DNA of 64,000 nucleotides from Albifimbria verrucaria (lineage: Eukaryota > Ascomycota > Sordariomycetes > Hypocreales > Stachybotryaceae), in assembly GCA_020081605.1 (NCBI GenBank), contig JAHREC010000013.1, positions 1,488,001-1,552,000 on the forward strand, read 5' to 3'. The position numbers and the translations under genes are program-made. Shown one piece after another: positions 41,914 through 60,510 of this stretch; the stretch's first letter is position 1; each line of letters starts with the position of its first letter. The notes under the pieces were generated by a model. The model made no database searches. It saw nothing but the letters and a program-made list of their open reading frames with translations, and was not told where the DNA came from.

Positions 41914-43711
41914 GCCACGGAAGATGGCAGCCCTGTGTATGTTGTAACTTGATGCCACGAGATTGTACGTGAGTAACCGTCTAGCCCTGTAGCCTACCTT
42001 GTTTGTAAGACCTGGTTTGGAGAATATCTTGGGCGCATTAGGCGTCATGTTGTTTTCGGTGTATATTATCAGCAGGCCGACTTGACGCGGAGCCAAAGCA
42101 CCGCCTTGTCCTCAAAAGAATATTATGAGTCACTGGATAATGTGCTTCACTTGGAGCTTCCTTGTCATCGCAAGTGTACATTGCCTTGTTATCATGCGAG
42201 TCGCGGGACTCGAGGACGCATGTGCCTCGTGACAACCCCAGCGTCCCGTTTGGCAGGGAAGAAACGTTGCGTCTCCCCACCTCCCAATCTGTGCCATGAT
42301 CGATTTCGCACGGCTCTTTTTGAAACAGGCGCATTTTGTGTTCAGTTTTGGCAAGGGGCCACCTAGTGGTTGAGGACGACGAGAATCCTACGTTTCTTGT
42401 AAGTGGATGTAGGCTCCAAAGCAGGGCTGCGCATGATTCAGACTACAGTAACCTCAAAGTTGCTAAATGTCTGCCGTCACTCCTTTTACGAATCACGAAT
42501 CACATATCGAGTTCAGTACATCTTGTTTAGCCTGTATGTCGCGAACCCCATTTGGCATTTCACGAACTCGGAGTAATGTATGGACCGATAGCAGCTAGGT
42601 AGGTACCTTAGGTAACAGAAAAAAGATGTTGATGTGTAACCAATCCAACTGCCTTTGGAAATGCCTTACGGTTGGTTCATTCAATATGTGATTGCCTTAG
42701 CTAGATATAGACACCAAAGCCAGGGACTGTTAGTCCCAAATGAATAAAATATCCTTCTACGTAGGATTTATCAATTTACAACAGTGGTATATGATAGGAG
42801 GAAAGCGGTTTTGCGACTCTCCCATGTTTCTGTCAACCAATTTACAGGGTATATCCAAATACTGGCGCACATGGTCCGCTTCGCCATAGCTTCTCCGTCA
42901 ACATGACGCAACAATGAGAGTGCGCGACAATTAAACTCCACGCGTCGCGAGAGCTGAGGAGGCTATGCATCGCCACCTGGATATTGCAGCCTTACAGCAC
43001 ACTATTAAGAGCCCTGCGCTATGGGTTCTTGGCAGATAGGCAGGCCATCGCTCAGCTTCCTCTCAGTGTTGGTGGAGATGCTGGCGTGCCAGACATTTAT
43101 TCTACTTAGCTTCGAGATAGCTATTTACCGCGATTTGCATATTCGCGTAACTTCAACTATAATTCCATGGTTCCTCCATTTAGCAGTTTCCGAAACCAAG
43201 CCCAAATTTACGAGCCCATCTGCATTACAGTTGATTGATACTGGCAGTTGCTAGTCATGGGCACGCGTTGTAAGCAAAACATGATTCTGAACCTAACGCC
43301 GGGGTAAGCATTTCGCAGATGCCCAGTCGCAATAACATCAGATCCCCGCAGCTTCTCTTGTATCAAGCCTCAATATAAACGTCACTTTCCCTCATTATTT
43401 TGACAGTAAAAGAGGAAAATAAACACTACCTAAATATGCTAAGGGTTTGTTCCAGTTGATTGGCTAGGTAGTAGTGCCAGTATTTCATTAGTCCAAGTTA
43501 CGTACGGCTCAGCTACTGTATGTGTCTCATGCATTATCTGACGCAAGTAACTGCAGAATTAACTTGGTGGGTGTACCAAGGCATCACTGGGGTATTCTAG
43601 GGTCTCTACAGACTCTGAAGCCGGATGTTGGAGAGCACGTTGGAAGTAAATTATTGTGGCGCGGTGAGCCAAGGTATATATATAGTAATATCAAATTGCC
43701 ACCCAACAATT
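41914..43711. other. gene-poor region before the tRNA gene
   Basis: No gene recognised. AT content rises from about 42400 onward and stop codons are frequent in all frames. A GGTACC-centred palindromic stretch lies near 42598-42615. Confidence 0.5.
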
Positions 43712-43737
43712 GGTGTGGTGTCCGAGTGGTTAAGGAG

Positions 43738-43798
43738 GTAAGCATCATATCCAGTCCTGCGAAGTCACAAGTTCGATCACTAACAACCTACCTATCAG
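43738..43798 (+). other. ectopic insert in tRNA-Ser, spliceosomal-intron-like
   Basis: 61 bases between tRNA positions 26 and 27. It begins GTAAGC, has ACTAAC (43779-43784) with the presumed branch A 15 bases before the end, and ends ACCTATCAG. This matches the donor, branch point and acceptor of spliceosomal introns elsewhere in this window. The boundary can slide by one base because of a shared G. It also contains GTTCGATCAC, weakly resembling a B box. Confidence 0.75.
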
Positions 43799-43809
43799 TT
43801 TGACTTGAA

Positions 43810-43864
43810 ATGCCTCAGTACCTCAGGATCTTCGGATCGTGAAATTGAGAAAATACTTCATGTT
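43810..43864 (+). other. canonical-position tRNA intron
   Basis: 55 bases directly after A37, the standard site cut by the eukaryotic tRNA splicing endonuclease. Removal restores a seven-base anticodon loop closed by TTTGA/TCAAA. It contains an internal hairpin (GATC-TTCG-GATC, about 43828-43839). Confidence 0.8.
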
Positions 43865-43914
43865 ATCAAATGGGTTCGCCCGCGCAGGTTCGAATCCTGT
43901 CCACACCGCCATTC

Positions 43915-43920
43915 TTTTTT
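43915..43920 (+). terminator. Pol III terminator of tRNA-Ser
   Basis: Six T in a row, seven bases after the tRNA 3' end, the usual RNA polymerase III stop signal. Confidence 0.8.
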
Positions 43921-45203
43921 GCTGTCGAGTTGGATTATTCCTTAGGTACCTTTCGCCGTAAACACTGGGCGTGGGTAGTGAATCCCTCAGTAGGCGAGTG
44001 AAGTATGGAATACGCCTGGTTTGTCCTTTTTGTGAAGTGGGGCACTCACAAAGGTCTTATCCGGTTAAGCTTATCCTCGGTGACCAATCATGACACACAC
44101 ACAAAATGACCAAGGCGCTGAAGGACGAACTAGAGACAACTTCAATGTTGATTCAACAGTCAATTACCTACCTGTATATACTCAGGAGGTCTCTGAAATA
44201 CGTACAATAAAGGAGAGGCAGATTAAATAATTAGATAAGCCCAATAGATCAGGCAAAGTCACTCAGTCAGTACAAAGAGCGCCAGGAACACTACAGCCTA
44301 CATTGTGATAGGAGCGCCGTATAAGCGAAGCGCCTCTGCAGCGCTTGTAAGATCCTGCCAGGGCAAGCTCTAAGATACAGTACTTGGAAGGTTTGGACTC
44401 TCCCTGTCGACAATTATGTAGTTGAATCTCGTTTCTTCTTAGTTTTGTCTGCTTCTCTCTTCTGCATGTCACTCAGAAGTGACCCCAAGTGTTATCGAGA
44501 TTCTCTACATTGTCCAAATATCAATATCAACTCCAAAGGGCTACGGACCAGTGATGGAAGGCCAGTTCAGGCCGTCTGTATTATTTCTCTACTAATTTAC
44601 CCTGCTGGAACTGATGGGAGATGTTAGATACGTCCACTGCATGCGTTTAATATTATTGCCTCTGCTGTGAACTAAGACGCGTAGACATTTCACATCTGAG
44701 GACGGGCCGATGGCCACCAAAGTACTTGCAGGAATCATCTGTACCTCTCATTAAATACATATGACATAGTGGTGATTAAATGCGTTAGCTGTGTTCCTTC
44801 GAGGTTTCTCATAAAGTGGGCTTTGTCAGAATAATTCTTGATTAGTGCTCCCAGGAAGCTGAGGCATAGATACTATTTGGATTAAGAACCTCGTTTCTCA
44901 GCTTACAGGCCACATTGAATAGTGTTATACGAACTCATTTTTGAATTTTCGAATGTAAAGTGAATCAAGGGCCATAACATTGTTAGTATGAATCACGGAT
45001 TCCAACAGCTACTGATATCCATTCACAACTTGTCCTTCCTCGATAGTTTTATTGAGTTCCTCTCTCTAAACGTATATATAATGCATTACAATTATTCTCG
45101 ATATACCATTAGCATTATTGCAACTTACATTCTATCTTCAAAAACGCACTGTCTTACCTCTATTCCTGTCCACTCAACTCCCAATCAGTAAAGCCTATCC
45201 ATA
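43921..45203. other. AT-rich region without recognised genes
   Basis: No conserved coding sequence. AT-rich, with many short stops. The right end may hold the promoter of the small open frame at 45204. Confidence 0.5.
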
Positions 45204-45638
45204 ATGCCAGGACTTATCACAGGCTACGAAATTACCCATAAGGATCAACTCCTAGATCTGGTGATCCTTGGATGGGCAACAGATGAACTCAGCAGGGTCG
45301 CCACAAACGTACCTGTCGATAGCATATTGGTGACGGAAATATGGGGTTCCAACACAATCGTCTTTCGAGATATGTTACCTGGCCCTGGATTCGCTTACCG
45401 ACTGGCTCGTATGAAAGCGGCTGAACTTGCAGGGATAGGTACCTCTGATATTAATGAGGATAACCATGTGCACTATTTAATGCCTGACAGGGATAGGTTG
45501 AATAACATGATTGGGGCTGTTCGAATGAACATGGAAGCCTTAACAGGCTCTGGTGATATTGACAGTGGATCTGTTGGCTCTACGGATGTTGGCGACGGGG
45601 TTGTTGACAACGGAGATGTTAGCTCAGGTTCCAACTGA
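45204..45638 (+). CDS. hypothetical protein, 144 residues
   Basis: I do not recognise this protein. It is an uninterrupted frame with a soluble, mixed composition in the first 110 residues (LLDLVILGWATDELSRVA, then DSILVTEIWG) and a low-complexity acidic Gly/Ser/Asp/Val tail made of imperfect GD-type units. No signal peptide or membrane span is seen. It stands alone in an AT-rich, gene-poor stretch, with a TATATA element about 130 bases before the ATG. It could be a real orphan gene or a chance frame; the balanced composition of its first part favours a gene. Confidence 0.4.
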   Translation: MPGLITGYEITHKDQLLDLVILGWATDELSRVATNVPVDSILVTEIWGSNTIVFRDMLPGPGFAYRLARMKAAELAGIGTSDINEDNHVHYLMPDRDRLNNMIGAVRMNMEALTGSGDIDSGSVGSTDVGDGVVDNGDVSSGSN

Positions 45639-47317
45639 CAGCCGACCGTCTACATGCTAGGGCTAAAGTACGAACTCGGTTTAGATAGTGCTTCAATACA
45701 TTGCGCTGGTAACGCCGCAGATATATCACTTCCTTATTCTATCATTCATGGATCTGTGAAACCTTGCAACTCCTGGTGTAGCACGCAACTGCTGTCGATA
45801 CTTGTGATAAGTTTTTAACCTGGTACTTTGATAACTATTAAAATCGTTCAAACTCCAAAAACTATCTACGTGGATGCCAAGGTGAGCTCAGATGCCTTAG
45901 AGAGGTGACAGACCATAGGCGCCGCTGCTAGCTGACTCTCATTCATTGCGTGCACTGGTAATGCAAGCTCTGTTTCGGGCGTCTGGTTTGTCTTTAACTC
46001 CAATCTCGGCTGAATTTGGATTTAAAAAAACCCCCAAGATGGCCTGTTGTAACTTTTTTTCTTTCCTTCTCAACATCAACATTCCGCGAGTATCGCCGAC
46101 TTCTATTGCTTCTTCCCACCTACAATTCCATGCGTAATCAAATCGTTATTTCTGTCATCATTATCTAGGCTAATGTCAATAAATTCGATCCTATATCATA
46201 GTTCTTGGCATTGACATATCGTGTTTAAATACTTGTTTTCTACACCATGCTTCACTAATATTGATGCACCATCGCATTCCTGACCTCACCTAGACTCTCT
46301 CGTCATTTTCTACACATTTGGTTTTCGGTATTTGGAGCTCTTCTAACGAGTGTGACCATGACTGGTTACATTCCCTACATTTAAGAGTAAATGTTATTCT
46401 CCTTTACTACTAAAATTAGTTTCTAACTTCTTCAGCAACTTACGCCTCACTATAGTAAGCCTTATCTACAACACACCGACCGACCTTTTATTAATTACTA
46501 AATCCTATGCTTTAACTTTTAGTCTAAAACAATTGAGCCCGTATGTATCAAGATTACGTGTTAACACGTCACTATGCACCTGACTGGCTGTTGCTAGAAA
46601 CAGCCCCTTGGTCGTTCGGCCTCGGGGCAGAAGACCAGTAAGCCCTAAGAAGGAGAAGAAGAAGCAATGTCCCCATTGCAACAAATGGGGTATTCAAAGA
46701 CTAGAATTGCTAGGAGAAACGTAAGTAATTAGTCCTTTTAGAGGTACGTACACAGCCAATAACTTGGTAGCGAGGCCGGTGCTGGTCGTGAGATAGGACA
46801 GCATTACTGTGCCTATGGGTAGCATGCATCGTTCTGCCCGCGAGTGTAGTAGTGTCGTCCACAGGCATGTTTATGCGTGAGAAGGGATCCCTTCGCTACG
46901 TAAGTATCATTTTTATGCTGTTCTCCTCGCTCAGACTCAAGGCTTACAATATAGCATAGCCTACGACGGCACTGGTGACGATCTAGACCATGGGGCCCGC
47001 CAAGGGCAAGAAGACCAAGAAGAAGAAAGAGAAGGCCAACAAGAAACCCGCCTACGGAGCTCCAGACCAAAATCTGATTGAGTCTAATATTTTTTTCTGT
47101 CTTCTTCTTCTCCTCCTTCTTTTTTTTTTTTGTATAGAAAATTCTTTATTACATTGCTTTTGTTTTGTTTGGTGATTATGTAATGTAAGTGAAGCGTTCG
47201 TTCATGACCCCTTACGTGAACGTAGCTCACCGGGTACTTATCGAGTACCTGGTGGAGCTACCAATCGCAGCAGATAGCTCCTCCAGCATCATATGCGGAT
47301 GCGCGCGTCTCATTGCC
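45639..47317. other. AT-rich region before RIC1
   Basis: Mostly non-coding. A lysine-rich frame with CPHC near 46655-46680 and a second lysine-rich start near 46990 (MGPAKGKKTKKKKEK) could be remnants or exons of a small gene, but no consistent splice pattern joins them. A T-rich run lies at about 47100-47130. The RIC1 promoter should be at the right end. Confidence 0.45.
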
Positions 47318-50300
47318 ATGTATTGGCCTATAGGCACTCCGCATGTCTATGCTACCAGCAGTCAATCCTCGGGCTTCAAATTGTTTCATTCTCATGATGG
47401 CCTGACGAGTTCTTCAGATACCCAGTTGCCCAGACAGGACGACGATGACCTCCCACCCCCGCCTACGCCGCTGACTCCCATAACCCCAGCGACTCCCGCG
47501 ACTCCTGCCATACGATCTGTGGACGATGCCGACTATTACCCAGAAGTGGAAGATGAGGAAGAACCCCGTGCCTCTCTCTCGGGATCAATTCCGACACGTG
47601 ATCCCATCCTGGCGCTTCGCGTGTCTCGCAGTGGTCAGCTATTCGCCGTAATCACTGCGACCTCATTCACGATTTGGCAGACAAAAGTAGGGTCATGTTC
47701 GCTGCTGTCTCCTGCTCTTTTCTCTAACCCTCGCAGCCTACCGTCGTTCTCGCTGTTGTCGTCCGCTCCGATTCCTCAGTTCAGCTCTATGGCGAGAATG
47801 TCGACCTCCTCCTCAGACCCGACTCGGCAATCCTGGTTGTCCGTACCTCGCAAGGATATCTCATCACCTACTCTATAGCCACCGATGCCGAGTCCCGCGT
47901 ATACAAACCATACTTCACAGACTACCACAATGTCCAGCGACGAAGACAGAGCCTGGTCTCCGGCTTATCTACACTTGCGCCCGACCAATTCCTCTGGGGA
48001 CCTGGAGAAGGATCAGGCGTTCGAGATGTGAGCGTTCGTTTCCGAATGGTGATCAAGGTGGATGCGGGAATCGAGTGCGCGCTTGCACTCGACGATGAAT
48101 TGGTAGTGGCTACTCGAAAACCGGCTGCCGTACAGTGTATCCGTTGGACTCCCGACAGCAGTGGAAGCCAGACGCGAACAGAGATTGTTAGTCGCATGGG
48201 ATGGATTGAGAAAAAGGCCTATATCACCGAGATGACGCATGACCGACCGATGAACCTGGCTACTTGGGTTACAAGCGACGGTCGAGCATACGCGGTCCAG
48301 CGACACCGGCAACACGGCGAGGCCCCGTGGAAGCGGACGCGAAGCGCTTGTTCAAAGGACACTGCTTTCATGTGCCCACAAATGCAGGCGATGAAGCTGT
48401 ACGGGCTCTAGTTAACGCTCGTTTCTCGCTGATTGCCGTTGCCTGCAAGGATGGCTCCATCCGTGTCTATTCTGTCAAGGACTACGCTGGAAATATTACA
48501 CCATCTCACACGCACACTCTCCCAGTCTCTGCATCCTCCGCCGGAGCCTTTACCAATCTGAGCTACTCACCGGATGGATATTGCTTGTTTGCTGGCTTCG
48601 AGAAAGGTTGGTCAACCTGGAGTATGTTTGGCAAGTTGGGAAGCAGTAGTTTCTTCGCTGATGCCAACTTGTCGGCGAGCAACGGTGAAGAATGGCTATC
48701 CGGCGTCAGCAATGCTTCATGGGTCAGTGGGGAGCCGAGATTTTGATTACTGGACTCAAGCATGAGGCTGTTTGGTCACTGGAAATGGCCAAGAGCGCAG
48801 TTACCGGGTGCTATAACGAGGCTAACATTTTCCGAACCGTACTACAAACGCCAACAAGCGCCATGGTCTATCGTGGATACGACTTGCCGGATCTAACGAG
48901 CATCTCGGCCGAACCCTTCTTATGGCATACTGCAAAGATCCCTCAACCTACCTCCTTAACCAATGGCCGATTCGGCAAACTGTTATATCATCTGACGGAC
49001 GCTATGTTGCGGTGGCGGGTCGACGAGGCCTAGCTCATTACAGCGTCAATAGCGGCCGCTGGAAGACCTTTGCCAACGAGGTCATGGAAAACGAGTTCCA
49101 AGTACGTGGTGGAATGTGCTGGTATCAACATATCCTTGTGGCTGCCGTGGAATGCAATGGGGCGTACGAACTCCGTCTCTACTCCCGAGAGGCTGCCCTC
49201 GACTCGTCTGTGGTTCTGCACACGGAGACAATCCCGGCTCCCGTCGTTCTGGTGACGATCTCGAACGAAGACTCTTTGCTTGTGTACACGTACGAAAACC
49301 TTCTCTACCACTTTGTCTTCACTTCCTACAACGGAGCAATCCGGCTTATGCAAGTGGGCCAGATCGCCTTCCACGGGATTGTAAGATCTCCGGCGCGAGT
49401 ACGCGGGCTCAGCTGGGTCTTACCAGAGGAGCAACTCGTGAATGGTGATCCATCGCAGGATGTTGCCACCGCGTCAGTCATTTTCCTGGTGGACGGCAAG
49501 CTCGTCCTGTTACGCCCATCGCTCAACGAGGAAGGTCGTTTGAAGTACGATATGCGTGTCATTGCGCAAAATGTGGAGTATCATGCTATCATGAGAGGCC
49601 AGCCTTCACTAAACACATCTCGACAGCCCGAGGAACCTGTAAGCTCACGCGGATCGGGTCCACTAGAGAACTCATTATGGATTTTCGATGGAATGGACAT
49701 GAAAACATGGGCTGACATCAACGAGGTCCTTGAGCCAGGATCTGGTGATGGCACTCGGGAGGTGCCAGTTCCTATCTCAATCCCTGTCGATTTCTACCCT
49801 CTCTCTATCATTCTTGAAAAAGGCATTTTGCTCGGAGTTGAATCCGATTTAGTCCAGCGGCGTGATGTGAATTTCTCCTTCTTCCATTTTGCGATTCGGG
49901 TAAGTAAGGACGGTTCATGTCTTTTTAACATGACTAACACATCATAGACACATCTCGTTCTCGCAGACGTCCTACGGTTCTACCTTCGCCAGAACAAGAA
50001 GGCTGAAGCTGCGGCCGTAGCTCAGCAGTATCGGGACTTGGAGTACTTCGCACACGGTCTGGAAGTGCTACTTCATCGAGTGTTGGACGAAGAGGTGGAT
50101 ACATGCCCGAAACCAGAAGACGCTGTCTTACCAAGGGTGCTCTCATTACTGTCATCATTTAAGGAGTATCTCGACATTGTGGTACAGTGCACTCGAAAAA
50201 CCGAAGTACGGCAGTGGCAGACTCTATTCGCATACCTTCCGCCAGCGCAGGAACTGTTTGAAGAATCTTTGCAGCGAGGTTCCCTCAAGACTGCTGGAGG

Positions 50301-56621: not shown

Positions 56622-59600
56622 TCACCCTCTCTTCATTCCGTTGATGCTGCATCCATTGATCTTCCATTTGTTGACGTTTCCTTTTTGTTCTTCAATCTGT
56701 TGTATTCTCATCCGTCGATGCTCCATCCGTCGATGCTTCATCCATTTTTGTTGGCGTTTGCTTTTGTGTTGTTCAATCTTTTCTAGTATTTCCATCTGTT
56801 GTGATTTCATCTGTTGGAATTCCATCCATTGATGTTCCATTTGTTGGAGTTCCCTTTCGTGTTCTTCAATCTCTTCTAGTATTTCCACCCGCTGCAATTC
56901 CATCTGTTGCAATTCCATCCCTTGATGCTCCATCCGTTGACGCTCAATTCGTTGATCTTCCATTTGTTGGAGTTTCCTTTTGTGTTTTTCAATCTCTCGT
57001 AGCAATTCCATCCGTTGATGCTCCATCCGCTGGTGCTCTATCCGTTGATGCTCCATCCGTTGATGCTCTATCCGTTGGTGCTCTATCCGTTGATGCTCCA
57101 TCCGTTGATCTTCCAATTCTTCATCGAATTCCTCCACTATTACAGCGTCGAATGATGTTCCAGTGTTTCTAGGACATCCCGAAGGAGTAACCACTTTAGA
57201 AAAGTCGTGATTGTGCAATTTCTCCGCTGTCTGCCAGTACGAACCCATCATGACCTTGGCTGATAAATCAGCTGGACGAGATGCTCTGTCATCAAGTCTA
57301 GGCTGCACGATTGGTGAAACAAACTTTGAGTGATGATGAGCTACTTCGATAGGAACATACGATCTTGGCCTCAGATGTACGATGGGCTCTGTACCACCAA
57401 TCGAAGGAGGCGTGATGAATTTACGTGCTGCAGACCACTTTGAGGTGCTCTTCGTGAGCTTCCTCTCAAGAACTTGAGACGTCTGCGGAAGAAACTCCCC
57501 GAAGGCCTCTCTCACACGAGAGCCCATTGCAGAATTTCTATTCACCCTAGGGTTCGCGTTGTGCCGCACAAACGAATCCACGATGAGCGCCCATAATTCC
57601 AAGGCTCTTTTTCTGTCTGATATGGTGGCATCATTGGCCACGGTGATGGCTTCGCTAAGAACGATTTCAAAAGGTGTAACGCCAACAAAACTCTTATTTG
57701 GGTCGGCACCTGTCTCGAGGAGGAAGTTCACAAACGAAAGCCGTGGAGTTCTGTGGCCTACCCATTCGCATAGCCCAGCATGCTGCTTGTAGTCTCGCAC
57801 CACATGAAAGAGACATTGGTGCTTGTCTGGCTTGTCTCCTGTGTCGTGTGGTAGAGCTGCGCGAATGGTTTCCAGCATATACAGAGGCATCTGATAATCC
57901 ATGGCGAGGTCTGCAAGCGTGCTTGCGCCCGCTGCGAGGCGGCTACCTATTGTCCAGTGTTGACTTCGGGCCAGTGCGCTATCTTGAGTCTTCAGGCCCA
58001 TTTGGTCTCTGGAACATTGTGTTTTCTCCATGACAATCTCATCAATCAACCCCAGAAGTCGAGTCTGTGGTTCGCCACGCGCCCGTTCCACATCTGCTGC
58101 CAACGTCAGGGACCTATCGATTAGCTCCCAGAACTGCGTTTTGCTTTGCTCATCGATGGGACCAGGAAATGTTTTGAGTGACATGATACTAGAATGAAAT
58201 AATGAAGAAAACGGACAGAATGGTTCTTTGGTTCCTGAGTTTATCTTTCGAACCATTACTTTGCTTTCGAAGAAATCCCTGGCAGTTCGGTGAAGATATG
58301 AGATTTTGACATCGTGGAATGCCCTACCCTGCTGTGGACATTCAAACCTTCGCTAGTTTCCTCAGGAGATATGTCAGAGCCAGAGTGAGTTCCATCTCGT
58401 ACCTCGGCCATTTGGGACATTCGAGAAGATGGGTGAGGTTGTGTGCTGTGGACCCACGGGTTGCTTTCTTGAGAAGTTGGTATCTCCAAAAGTCCCTTGC
58501 ATCGACTATTCAACCGTCGCTTCGTAGTGAGATGACGTTCGTTCTTTTCCTCCACCTCCAAGGCAATGTTGGGTCTGCTGAGGGCCGCTAGGTAATCGTC
58601 TTCATCAGAAAAAGAAAGCTCCAGGACTGTTAGCGAGCCCTTCGCAACGCGTGCTAGCTGGAGAAATTGACACGCATGCTCGTAGTAGAAGTCTTCTATA
58701 GAGCCGAATATTTTCTCGTAAAACATTTCCAAGTCTGGGGTACCGTGTCCAATCGTCGCTGCAAATCCGACATGCGATCATGGTTCCTCAGCCCACTGAC
58801 AAGCGACTTTGTCGCCAATTCAACCCATAGAAACACTCCTGCTGCCCTTGTGGCCACTGCCTCGATCAAAGTTACCTCACGGGCAGGCTCACGCCGTACC
58901 ATCTCTTTGAAATGGTTATTTGCTCGAAACTGCGCTGCTGTGAACCGTACAATGTCAGGGTAGGTAAGAAGATGTAGTTGCAGGTTGGGCTTGCAGTGAA
59001 AGGCATCTTCGAAGACAACCCATGGCCGGCTCGCTAGGCAGGCCTTCACATTCGGGTTGGCAACGGTTTCGGCAAATATGTGCACCAGCATCTCGTGATC
59101 TCCGTCAAACTCATCGAGACCGTCGACAAAGAGGCAGAGCTTGAATGAGTCTTCGCTAAGCTTTAATACTGTCTTAAAAGCCTGTAGCAGCTCCCAGTCA
59201 GCAAAAGGCCGTGTGTTCTTTCCAAGATTTGAGGCAATGCGCATCCGTTCAGGAAAGGCATCCGAAACGAGCTCGGGCCTCTCCGTGAGAATATCGTAAA
59301 GAAGAGATCGAAGAAGGCCAACTTGAGACATTTGTGCCACGCTTCCAGAGTTCCAGAAGTAAAATTTTGCAACCACCAGAGGCATAGATCCTGCCCACTT
59401 CCTCAAGCAATCCATTGTTCTGGCGTTGCTGGTCAAGTATTTGACAAGTGTCGATTTGCCAGATCCAGCCTTTCCAGTGATCCAATAGACATCCTCATCG
59501 GACTCGAGCCAGTCTGACATGCTAGACCACTTCGCCTCCGTATTGGTAGTCGAATTATGAGACTCAAACACCCATTGGAAAGTGTCAATATGTGCTTGTG

Positions 59601-60510
59601 TTATACGAAATTCTCGCTCTCCTTTGTCATCAAAGTACAAGTTGGCGATGATATCCTCAGTATGTTGCTTGATCCAAGTTGACTGACCCCATTCAGTCAA
59701 TTTGTTCGAGAACTCTAATGCGCTATTTGCGCCGCATCTTTGATTTTCTCTGTCATGAGTTTGGATGTCTCTGGCTAGTACAGTTAATTGTCTTGCCCAG
59801 GCCCTAACATCTCCAGGCTTATGAGCGTTCTGAATACTATTTAGCGACTTATTCGAGTTGAGAAGCAGAGAGAAACGCGTCTGCTGTCTTGGATCAAACG
59901 CTGTCAGTATAGCTATTCAGATAAAGCCTGTTATACTGGCTCACCTCATGGCAACTAAGAGACATGTATCAAGGGTTGCACGATAGTTTTCCAGTTGAGC
60001 TCTAAGATCGTTGATGCGACTTTGGCCATAGATGCTCTTGAATGCTTGTCGCATGCTCTTCCATTTGCTTCTTCTTCCGTTATAACGTAGGCTCTCTAGA
60101 GCCTCTGTAAGTTCACATGCCACCCTGAAGCATCCCTTGTTAATGACACGGAGTATCACATCCGTCCTGTCGTCGGCCCGTGTAAGATTGACATGATCCT
60201 TCTTTCGAAGAATACCTTCGAGTTCCTCTTCACCTGAGCCCGATCGCAGTGCATAGTCCAAGCGATTCTGCAAACCCGATGAATCAAAGACGTTCCCCGC
60301 TTGCCGTGTCAATGGCTTCGATTGAAGGTCACTCTCGAGTTGCCTGCTCAGTTCATTCAGGCATGCAGCAGTAATAGCCACATCAGCGTAATCAATCAAC
60401 AAGCCATCTCTAGATGTGTGTATCTGCCGTCCTTTTGAAACGAGCTTCACAGCAAATTCGAGAAACTGTAGGGCATTACCAGCCAAGGCTACAGCTGAGA
60501 GCGGCTCCAT
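56622..60510 (-). CDS. STAND NTPase: N-terminal effector-like domain, NACHT, ANK-like part, coiled-coil repeat tail
   Basis: Fungal NLR-like protein; relatives act in self/non-self recognition and programmed cell death. The N-terminal domain (MEPLSAVALAGNALQFLEFA) is the helical type often found before NACHT. An intron of about 50-70 bases near 59885-59940 leads to LYFDDKGEREFRI and the NACHT core: Walker A GKAGSGKST, Walker B LCLFVDGLDEFDGD and sensor CLASRPW. Then come the winged-helix part (YYEHACQFLQLARV, RRLNSRCKGLLE), YLHRTARDFFE, an ankyrin-like unit (FVNFLLETGADPNKSFVGVTPFE) and a tail made of repeated five-residue QRMEH/QRIEH units, predicted to be a coiled coil. Two frame changes, near 58720 and between 58300 and 58480, occur in otherwise conserved sequence. 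At 58256 a stop and an ATG overlap, but the downstream frame already carries the conserved YLHRT motif, so this is one gene. A 3' exon at 56262-56561 is possible. Confidence 0.82.
56640..57115 (-). repeat. 15-bp coding minisatellite in the NACHT gene tail
   Basis: On the plus strand, units such as TCCGTTGATGCTCCA follow each other in phase, strongest at about 57010-57110. The rest of the tract contains diverged copies (HQRIEHQ, LQQMELQ types) in higher-order blocks separated by EIEKHKR/EIEEHER spacers. Every length change by one unit keeps the reading frame. Confidence 0.85.

Follow-up and report, generated by a model that had tools for sequence, protein, structure and literature searches.

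Splicing of tRNAs and splicing of mRNAs are treated as separate pathways. Spliceosomal introns are also found in fungal rRNA genes. Among the small structured RNAs, U3 and U6 are described as the only ones known to be often interrupted (PMC5832005). The introns of fungal U3 genes resemble the case reported here in being spliceosomal introns within a structured non-coding RNA, but the U3 cases given in that source involve no tRNA (PMC5832005). U6 genes with an intron have been described from fungi (PMC10484740, PMC5832005); a review on Trichoderma lists a U6 promoter with the first intron (PMC9518982), and for the U6 introns of Schizosaccharomyces a match to the B box is named in the title of Frendewey 1990, cited in PMC10484740. 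The fungal U6 intron, with a B box inside it reported for Schizosaccharomyces (Frendewey 1990, Canzler 2016), combines the signals GT...CTRAY...AG with an intronic B-box-like sequence in a Pol III gene. The introns described here have the same features, but their host is a tRNA gene with a B box of its own, their position is 26/27 and an intron at position 37/38 is sometimes present in addition.

According to the paper on tRNAscan-SE 2.0, a eukaryotic tRNA gene has no more than one intron (PMC8450103), and non-canonical introns in eukaryotes are supposed to be rare, with nucleomorphs and Cyanidioschyzon merolae as the cases cited (PMC4090602). In C. merolae and in the nucleomorphs of cryptophytes, tRNA introns occur outside position 37/38 and some genes possess two or three introns (PMC4090602, PMC3978253), which is what they have in common with the genes reported here. 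As described in these sources, such introns are BHB motif-containing substrates of the tRNA endonuclease or are removed by an unknown mechanism, and they come without spliceosomal signals, whereas in the present case these signals are strong and a strict BHB motif is absent. A literature search covering titles, the beginnings of abstracts and phrases, mostly in journals outside subscription, did not turn up any paper on spliceosomal introns in tRNA genes.

The DNA analysed here, from here on called the window, is a stretch of 64,000 nt from the ascomycete Albifimbria verrucaria. Among the named proteins within the best 120 of 7464 matches, the mitochondrial uL2 encoded in this genome comes nearest to that of Stachybotrys elegans, of the Hypocreales (80%), and an unnamed protein from JGI reaches 86%, which suggests a hypocrealean fungus. 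It contains a tRNA-Ser(UGA) gene with two inserts. We consider it likely that the 61-nt insert of this gene is a U2-type spliceosomal intron at position 26/27 of a Pol III tRNA gene, which would also bring along a substitute B box. If true, splicing capacity would be directly linked to decoding and tRNA supply, the spliceosome would gain a Pol III substrate beyond U6, and a natural system would be available to test intron gain, e.g. by reverse splicing.

Anatomy of the tRNA-Ser(UGA) gene in the window

The gene, termed SerA, extends from position 43712 to position 43908 of the window, with all its elements on the plus strand. Excision of both inserts joins the segments 43712-43737, 43799-43809 and 43865-43908 into a perfect class II tRNA of 81 nt, in which all stems are paired and which is called Ser(tga) by ARAGORN. 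The acceptor stem reads GGTGTGG/CCACACC, the anticodon stem TTTGA/TCAAA, and G73 is present. Exon 1 (43712-43737) provides the 5′ strand of the acceptor stem and the D arm with the A box, and ends at G26. It is followed by the ectopic intron of 61 nt at position 26/27 (43738-43798), which starts with GTAAGC, ends with CAG and contains the candidate branch site ACTAAC at 43779-43784, with the branch A at 43783, 15 nt before the intron end. The boundary of this insert can slide by 0, -1 or -2 with the product unchanged. Exon 2, TTTGACTTGAA (43799-43809), contributes the 5′ strand of the anticodon stem and the anticodon UGA. The second intron, 55 nt in length (43810-43864), was placed by ARAGORN at the canonical position 37/38 once the first insert had been removed. 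Exon 3 (43865-43908) comprises the 3′ strand of the anticodon stem, the variable arm, the T arm, the 3′ strand of the acceptor stem and G73. The normal T-loop B box, GTTCGAATC, is located at 43888-43896, 169 nt from the A box, and a run of six T residues at 43915-43920 constitutes the Pol III terminator.

The preliminary description had given this two-insert structure with its coordinates, the class II product with G73 and the T6 run, the canonical placement of the 55-nt insert and the signals GTAAGC, ACTAAC and CAG in the 61-nt insert between positions 26 and 27; this observation was confirmed, and its coordinates are exact. Three elements go beyond it. A candidate TBP site, TATATATATA, lies upstream at 43675-43684, about -37 to -28 relative to the tRNA 5′ end; a B-box-like sequence with a putative promoter function, GTTCGATCA, is found within the 61-nt intron at 43771-43779, 52 nt from the start of the A box; and the genome contains three more tRNA genes with an insert at position 26/27.

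In the intact window, ARAGORN found 0 genes and Rfam gave 0 matches at gathering scores, and with its intron option ARAGORN misnamed SerA as SeC(tca). If the present reading is true, such genes can be overlooked or wrongly named by tRNA finders, as was the case with SerA. The longest mechanical ORF between 41.5 and 46.5 kb of the window comprises 144 aa only; therefore, no protein-coding host gene is evident around SerA.

Further genes with an insert at position 26/27

Genes with an insert at position 26/27 recur in this genome, and their exons bear marks of selection. When the mature tRNA was used as a BLAST query against the genome, a second tRNA-Ser(UGA) gene, SerB, was identified on contig C41; its insert at 26/27 has 50 nt and its intron at 37/38 has 31 nt. 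The mature sequences of SerA and SerB differ at 9 of 81 positions, and six of these represent three acceptor pairs changed on both sides, while standard pairs make up 23 of 23 stem pairs in both. Because of these three compensatory changes, both genes look selected as tRNAs. Each yields a complete cloverleaf after excision and has the A box, B box and T-run of a Pol III gene, as expected of a functional tRNA-Ser gene. The similarity between their 37/38 introns (p = 0.58), 5′ flanks (p = 0.73) and 3′ flanks (p = 0.11) was not above that of shuffled sequences. Their 26/27 introns have ATCCAG, the core AGTCACAAGTTCGA (43763-43776 in SerA and identical in SerB) and ACTAAC in common, and 0 of 3000 shuffles scored as high.

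Regarding an intact tRNA-Ser(UGA) gene elsewhere in the genome, which the preliminary description had named as part of what would speak against its proposal, the sole other copy found, SerB, has the same 26/27 insert. No third Ser(UGA) gene was detected in the genome by searches with the D arm (19 places with at most one mismatch) or with the variable and T arms (19 places with at most three mismatches). The other tRNA-Ser genes seen were 10 with the anticodon AGA and three with CGA, all without intron, and five with GCU and a 37/38 intron; one intronless Ser(gct) was called at locus L027. This census is a lower bound for Ser(UGA) genes and for inserts because the Rfam tRNA search scored 63 of 1591 candidates; of these 63, 30 were delivered as loci and a further 20 were fetched.

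On contig C4, two tRNA-Ile(AAU) genes that neighbour each other, termed Ile1 and Ile2, bear inserts of 54 and 55 nt exactly at position 26/27, both reading GTATGT...ACTAATT...CCAG. Together with a gene of their subfamily that lies at a distance of about 1 kb and lacks introns, they form a cluster on the minus strand (locus L003, G000:C4:889234-892307). The mature sequences of Ile1 and Ile2 are identical and their introns have diverged; the best-aligned parts of the introns are the 5′ site, the surroundings of a TCGA motif, the branch site and the 3′ end, with GTATGT and ACTAATT kept. The D arm of the main Ile(AAU) family occurs at 12 further places. Six of these were fetched, and all were Ile(aat) according to ARAGORN; four are intronless, two possess a short insert at 37/38 (L167 and L168, about a dozen bases), and a 26/27 insert was found in none of the six. 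Since Ile(AAU) genes without a 26/27 insert exist, Ile1 and Ile2 could be dispensable.

Outside the tRNA genes, the U6 snRNA gene, the one match over the cut-off with 47 of 3037 candidates scored, is interrupted within its ACAGAGA region (ACAG/AGA). The insert, GTTAGT...ACTGAC...CAG, is a spliceosomal-type intron of 75 nt with GGTTCGAATTC before the branch site (locus L086, G000:C22:312639-312713, minus strand). The SRP RNA showed no intron-like gap (273 nt versus 293 model positions).

The genome was also scanned for a D arm with an adjoining 5′ splice site. The patterns, designed such that the known genes would be included, covered D loops with 13 or 14 nt from A14 to position 26; they matched at 33 and 11 places (44 in total). 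The raw patterns are not enriched, because their backward controls gave more places, 64 and 50. A paired D stem was present at five of the 44 places, four of which are SerA, SerB, Ile1 and Ile2, and inspection of the fifth (L178) revealed no tRNA around it; hence, it takes the D-stem test to set the four genes apart. The exact D-arm patterns had no match in viral contigs or prokaryote genomes.

Splicing signals and removal of the inserts

The inserts at position 26/27 of SerA, SerB, Ile1 and Ile2 all read GT...CTRAY...CAG. All four begin with GT and end with AG in one of the equivalent registers, and the A of the CTRAY branch site is located 15, 10, 12 and 11 nt before the end, respectively. 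Ranked by the frequencies given for Fusarium (PMC5677156), the 5′ sites GTATGT and GTAAGC are third and fourth among the 256 GTNNNN sequences. The 5′ site of SerB, GTTGGT, is poor by the same frequencies (log2-odds -1.41, rank 54 of 256; PMC5677156) and is the weakest point of the spliceosomal reading. To estimate chance, 61-nt segments of the window were placed at the SerA site, and in 4 of 300,000 draws some equivalent register combined GT and YAG ends with CTRAY at 9-18 nt from the end and a G at +5. The chance is 1.3 × 10⁻⁵ to 3.3 × 10⁻⁵ per insert, with criteria chosen after seeing the genes; the draws, made with replacement, used the approximately 64,000 start points of one 64-kb window.

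From the sequence we infer removal by the spliceosome, an order of the two splicing events and a promoter role of the intron. The spliceosome would cut the 26/27 intron from the pre-tRNA, and the tRNA endonuclease and ligase would excise the 55-nt intron at 37/38 in the usual way. In sequence, the same arrangement is found in SerB, Ile1 and Ile2 and, as an intron with a candidate B box, in U6. The preliminary description had proposed a spliceosomal intron, or an element mimicking one, in a Pol III gene, and SerB, the signals in Ile1 and Ile2 and the intron of U6 support it. A one-off mimic is unlikely because signals of the same kind stand at the same position in two Ile(AAU) genes and U6 has a spliceosomal-type intron.

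Alternatively, the 26/27 inserts could be ectopic tRNA introns of the archaeal or red-algal type, removed by the tRNA endonuclease and ligase, with GT, CTRAY and AG present by accident. We regard this as unlikely. Introns of this kind have been described in Cyanidioschyzon and in nucleomorphs (PMC4090602, PMC3978253), and relaxed forms of the BHB motif occur. When bulge sizes and cut points were left free, SerA and SerB each reached 11 of 12 pairs in the best of three registers, a score that was also reached by 12 of 1000 shuffles in a single register, but the best relaxed forms of the two genes are unlike each other in bulge sizes and cut points. A strict BHB motif is absent at position 26/27 in all four genes, though this test is weak because two canonical introns of Ser(GCU) genes, used as controls, fail likewise (2 of 4 central and 0 of 4 inner pairs). 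Whichever equivalent register is taken, the central helix at 26/27 has 1-3 of 4 pairs; the outer helix has at most 3 of 4 pairs, whereas in the four 37/38 introns tested it corresponds to the anticodon stem and is fully paired (4 of 4). An accidental origin of the splice signals is also at odds with their low chance per insert. The evidence from the splice signals is stronger than that from the relaxed BHB forms for the endonuclease.

It is improbable, too, that the insert-bearing genes are dead copies, from which the inserts are never removed, with UCA codons read by tRNA-Ser(IGA). Insertions into the D or T arm of eukaryotic tRNA genes are mostly supposed to mark pseudogenes (PMC4090602), but decay of this kind is hard to reconcile with the three compensatory acceptor pairs between SerA and SerB, with the 23 of 23 stem pairs kept in both, with identical Ile exons flanking diverged introns and with an A box, a T-loop B box and a T-run in 4 of 4 genes. 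Other genes could take over in principle, given at least 10 Ser(AGA) genes and, for Ile(AAU), the gene without a 26/27 insert in the cluster and all six fetched genes of the main family; an insert-free Ser(UGA) gene, however, was not found by the genome BLAST or by the searches with the D arm and with the variable and T arms.

The intronic TCGA box, the origin of the introns and the surroundings of SerA

In all five introns, the four from tRNA genes and the one from U6, the branch A is 10-15 nt from the intron end and a TCGA motif starts 6-14 nt before the branch motif. Among 20 mRNA-like introns predicted ab initio by codon score, a noisy set of which some are probably false, TCGA was found at most 25 nt before the branch motif in one, and in 0 of 8 at a stricter cut. 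In shuffles, the chance of such a TCGA is 0.05-0.11 per intron, and within the Ser pair and within the Ile pair the introns are not independent cases. The distance from the A box start to the intronic TCGA box is 52, 47, 43 and 44 nt in SerA, SerB, Ile1 and Ile2, respectively, and that to the T-loop B box is 169, 134, 100 and 101 nt. In intronless controls, the spacing from A to B box is 53 nt in a Ser(CGA) gene and 46 nt in an Ile gene. The B-box consensus is GWTCRANNC, and all of its nine bases are matched only by the intronic box of SerB. By its likeness to the U6 introns of Schizosaccharomyces, the intronic TCGA box is probably a substitute B box. Located at approximately the normal distance from the A box, it would probably help TFIIIC to recognise a gene with its own B box displaced far downstream.

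One may go further and see in the insert mainly a promoter element, an extra B box, with splice-like ends that are secondary or coincidental and with removal by an unknown activity. Although the TCGA box lies 43-52 nt from the A box in all four genes and is contained in the conserved core of the Ser pair, we give this very little credence, as it leaves unexplained the GT, the branch site and the CAG in 4 of 4 genes as well as the retention of GTATGT and ACTAATT in the otherwise diverged Ile introns. An artefact of assembly or sequencing can practically be dismissed, since the analysis is based on one assembly but the inserts reside in four genes on three contigs and the introns are distinct.

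Coming back to spliceosomal introns, we tentatively suggest, as a possibility to which we would not yet commit ourselves, that tRNA genes of this fungus have been colonised at position 26/27 by a class of promoter-carrying spliceosomal introns, perhaps through reverse splicing into Pol III transcripts, the route proposed for U6. Each molecule of tRNA-Ser(UGA) would then need both the spliceosome and the tRNA endonuclease.

Three ideas about the origin and spread of these introns were considered and not adopted. Fungal introner-like elements are likewise short spliceosomal introns, gained in parallel (PMC4457414). They differ from the present case in that the introns of SerA and U6 each matched only themselves, with no near-identical copies, in a search of low sensitivity that missed the related intron of SerB. 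For a wider family of introns with a B box, the pattern GTTCGA..CTRAC..CAG was not enriched, with 68 places versus 154 in the backward control. Among the 61 places examined (from 57 fetched stretches and the three known loci; the unfetched ones repeat or overlap fetched sequence), five had an A-box-like sequence upstream, and only SerA, SerB and U6 look like Pol III genes. Evidence for one common origin of the Ser, Ile and U6 introns is suggestive only: three of eight between-family pairs had p < 0.05, uncorrected (SerB-U6, 0.003; Ile1-U6, 0.012; SerA-Ile2, 0.021), when compared with shuffles preserving the 5′ site, the branch site and the 3′ end. The remaining pairs gave 0.45 (SerA-U6), 0.24 (Ile2-U6), 0.63 (SerA-Ile1), 0.38 (SerB-Ile1) and 0.095 (SerB-Ile2). 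With TCGA preserved as well, p was 0.025 for SerB-U6 and 0.017 for Ile1-U6, and a cruder similarity test gave 0.0005 for SerB-U6 and 0.27 for SerA-U6.

Within the window, SerA is housed in an AT-richer stretch (42001-48000) with a GC content of 0.44-0.47, versus 0.51-0.58 in most 2-kb steps; the region from 56 to 60 kb is likewise low (0.48). Downstream of SerA, an exon for the second beta-propeller of RIC1 is located at 48922-49947 on the plus strand. On the minus strand, the ORF at 56622-58256 has no Pfam match and encodes, in the C-terminal part, a large number of QRMEHQ-like repeats in tandem, and the ORF at 58696-59700 has matches to NPHP3_N and AAA_16, with NACHT below the cut-off, and resembles a fragment of an NLR-like gene.
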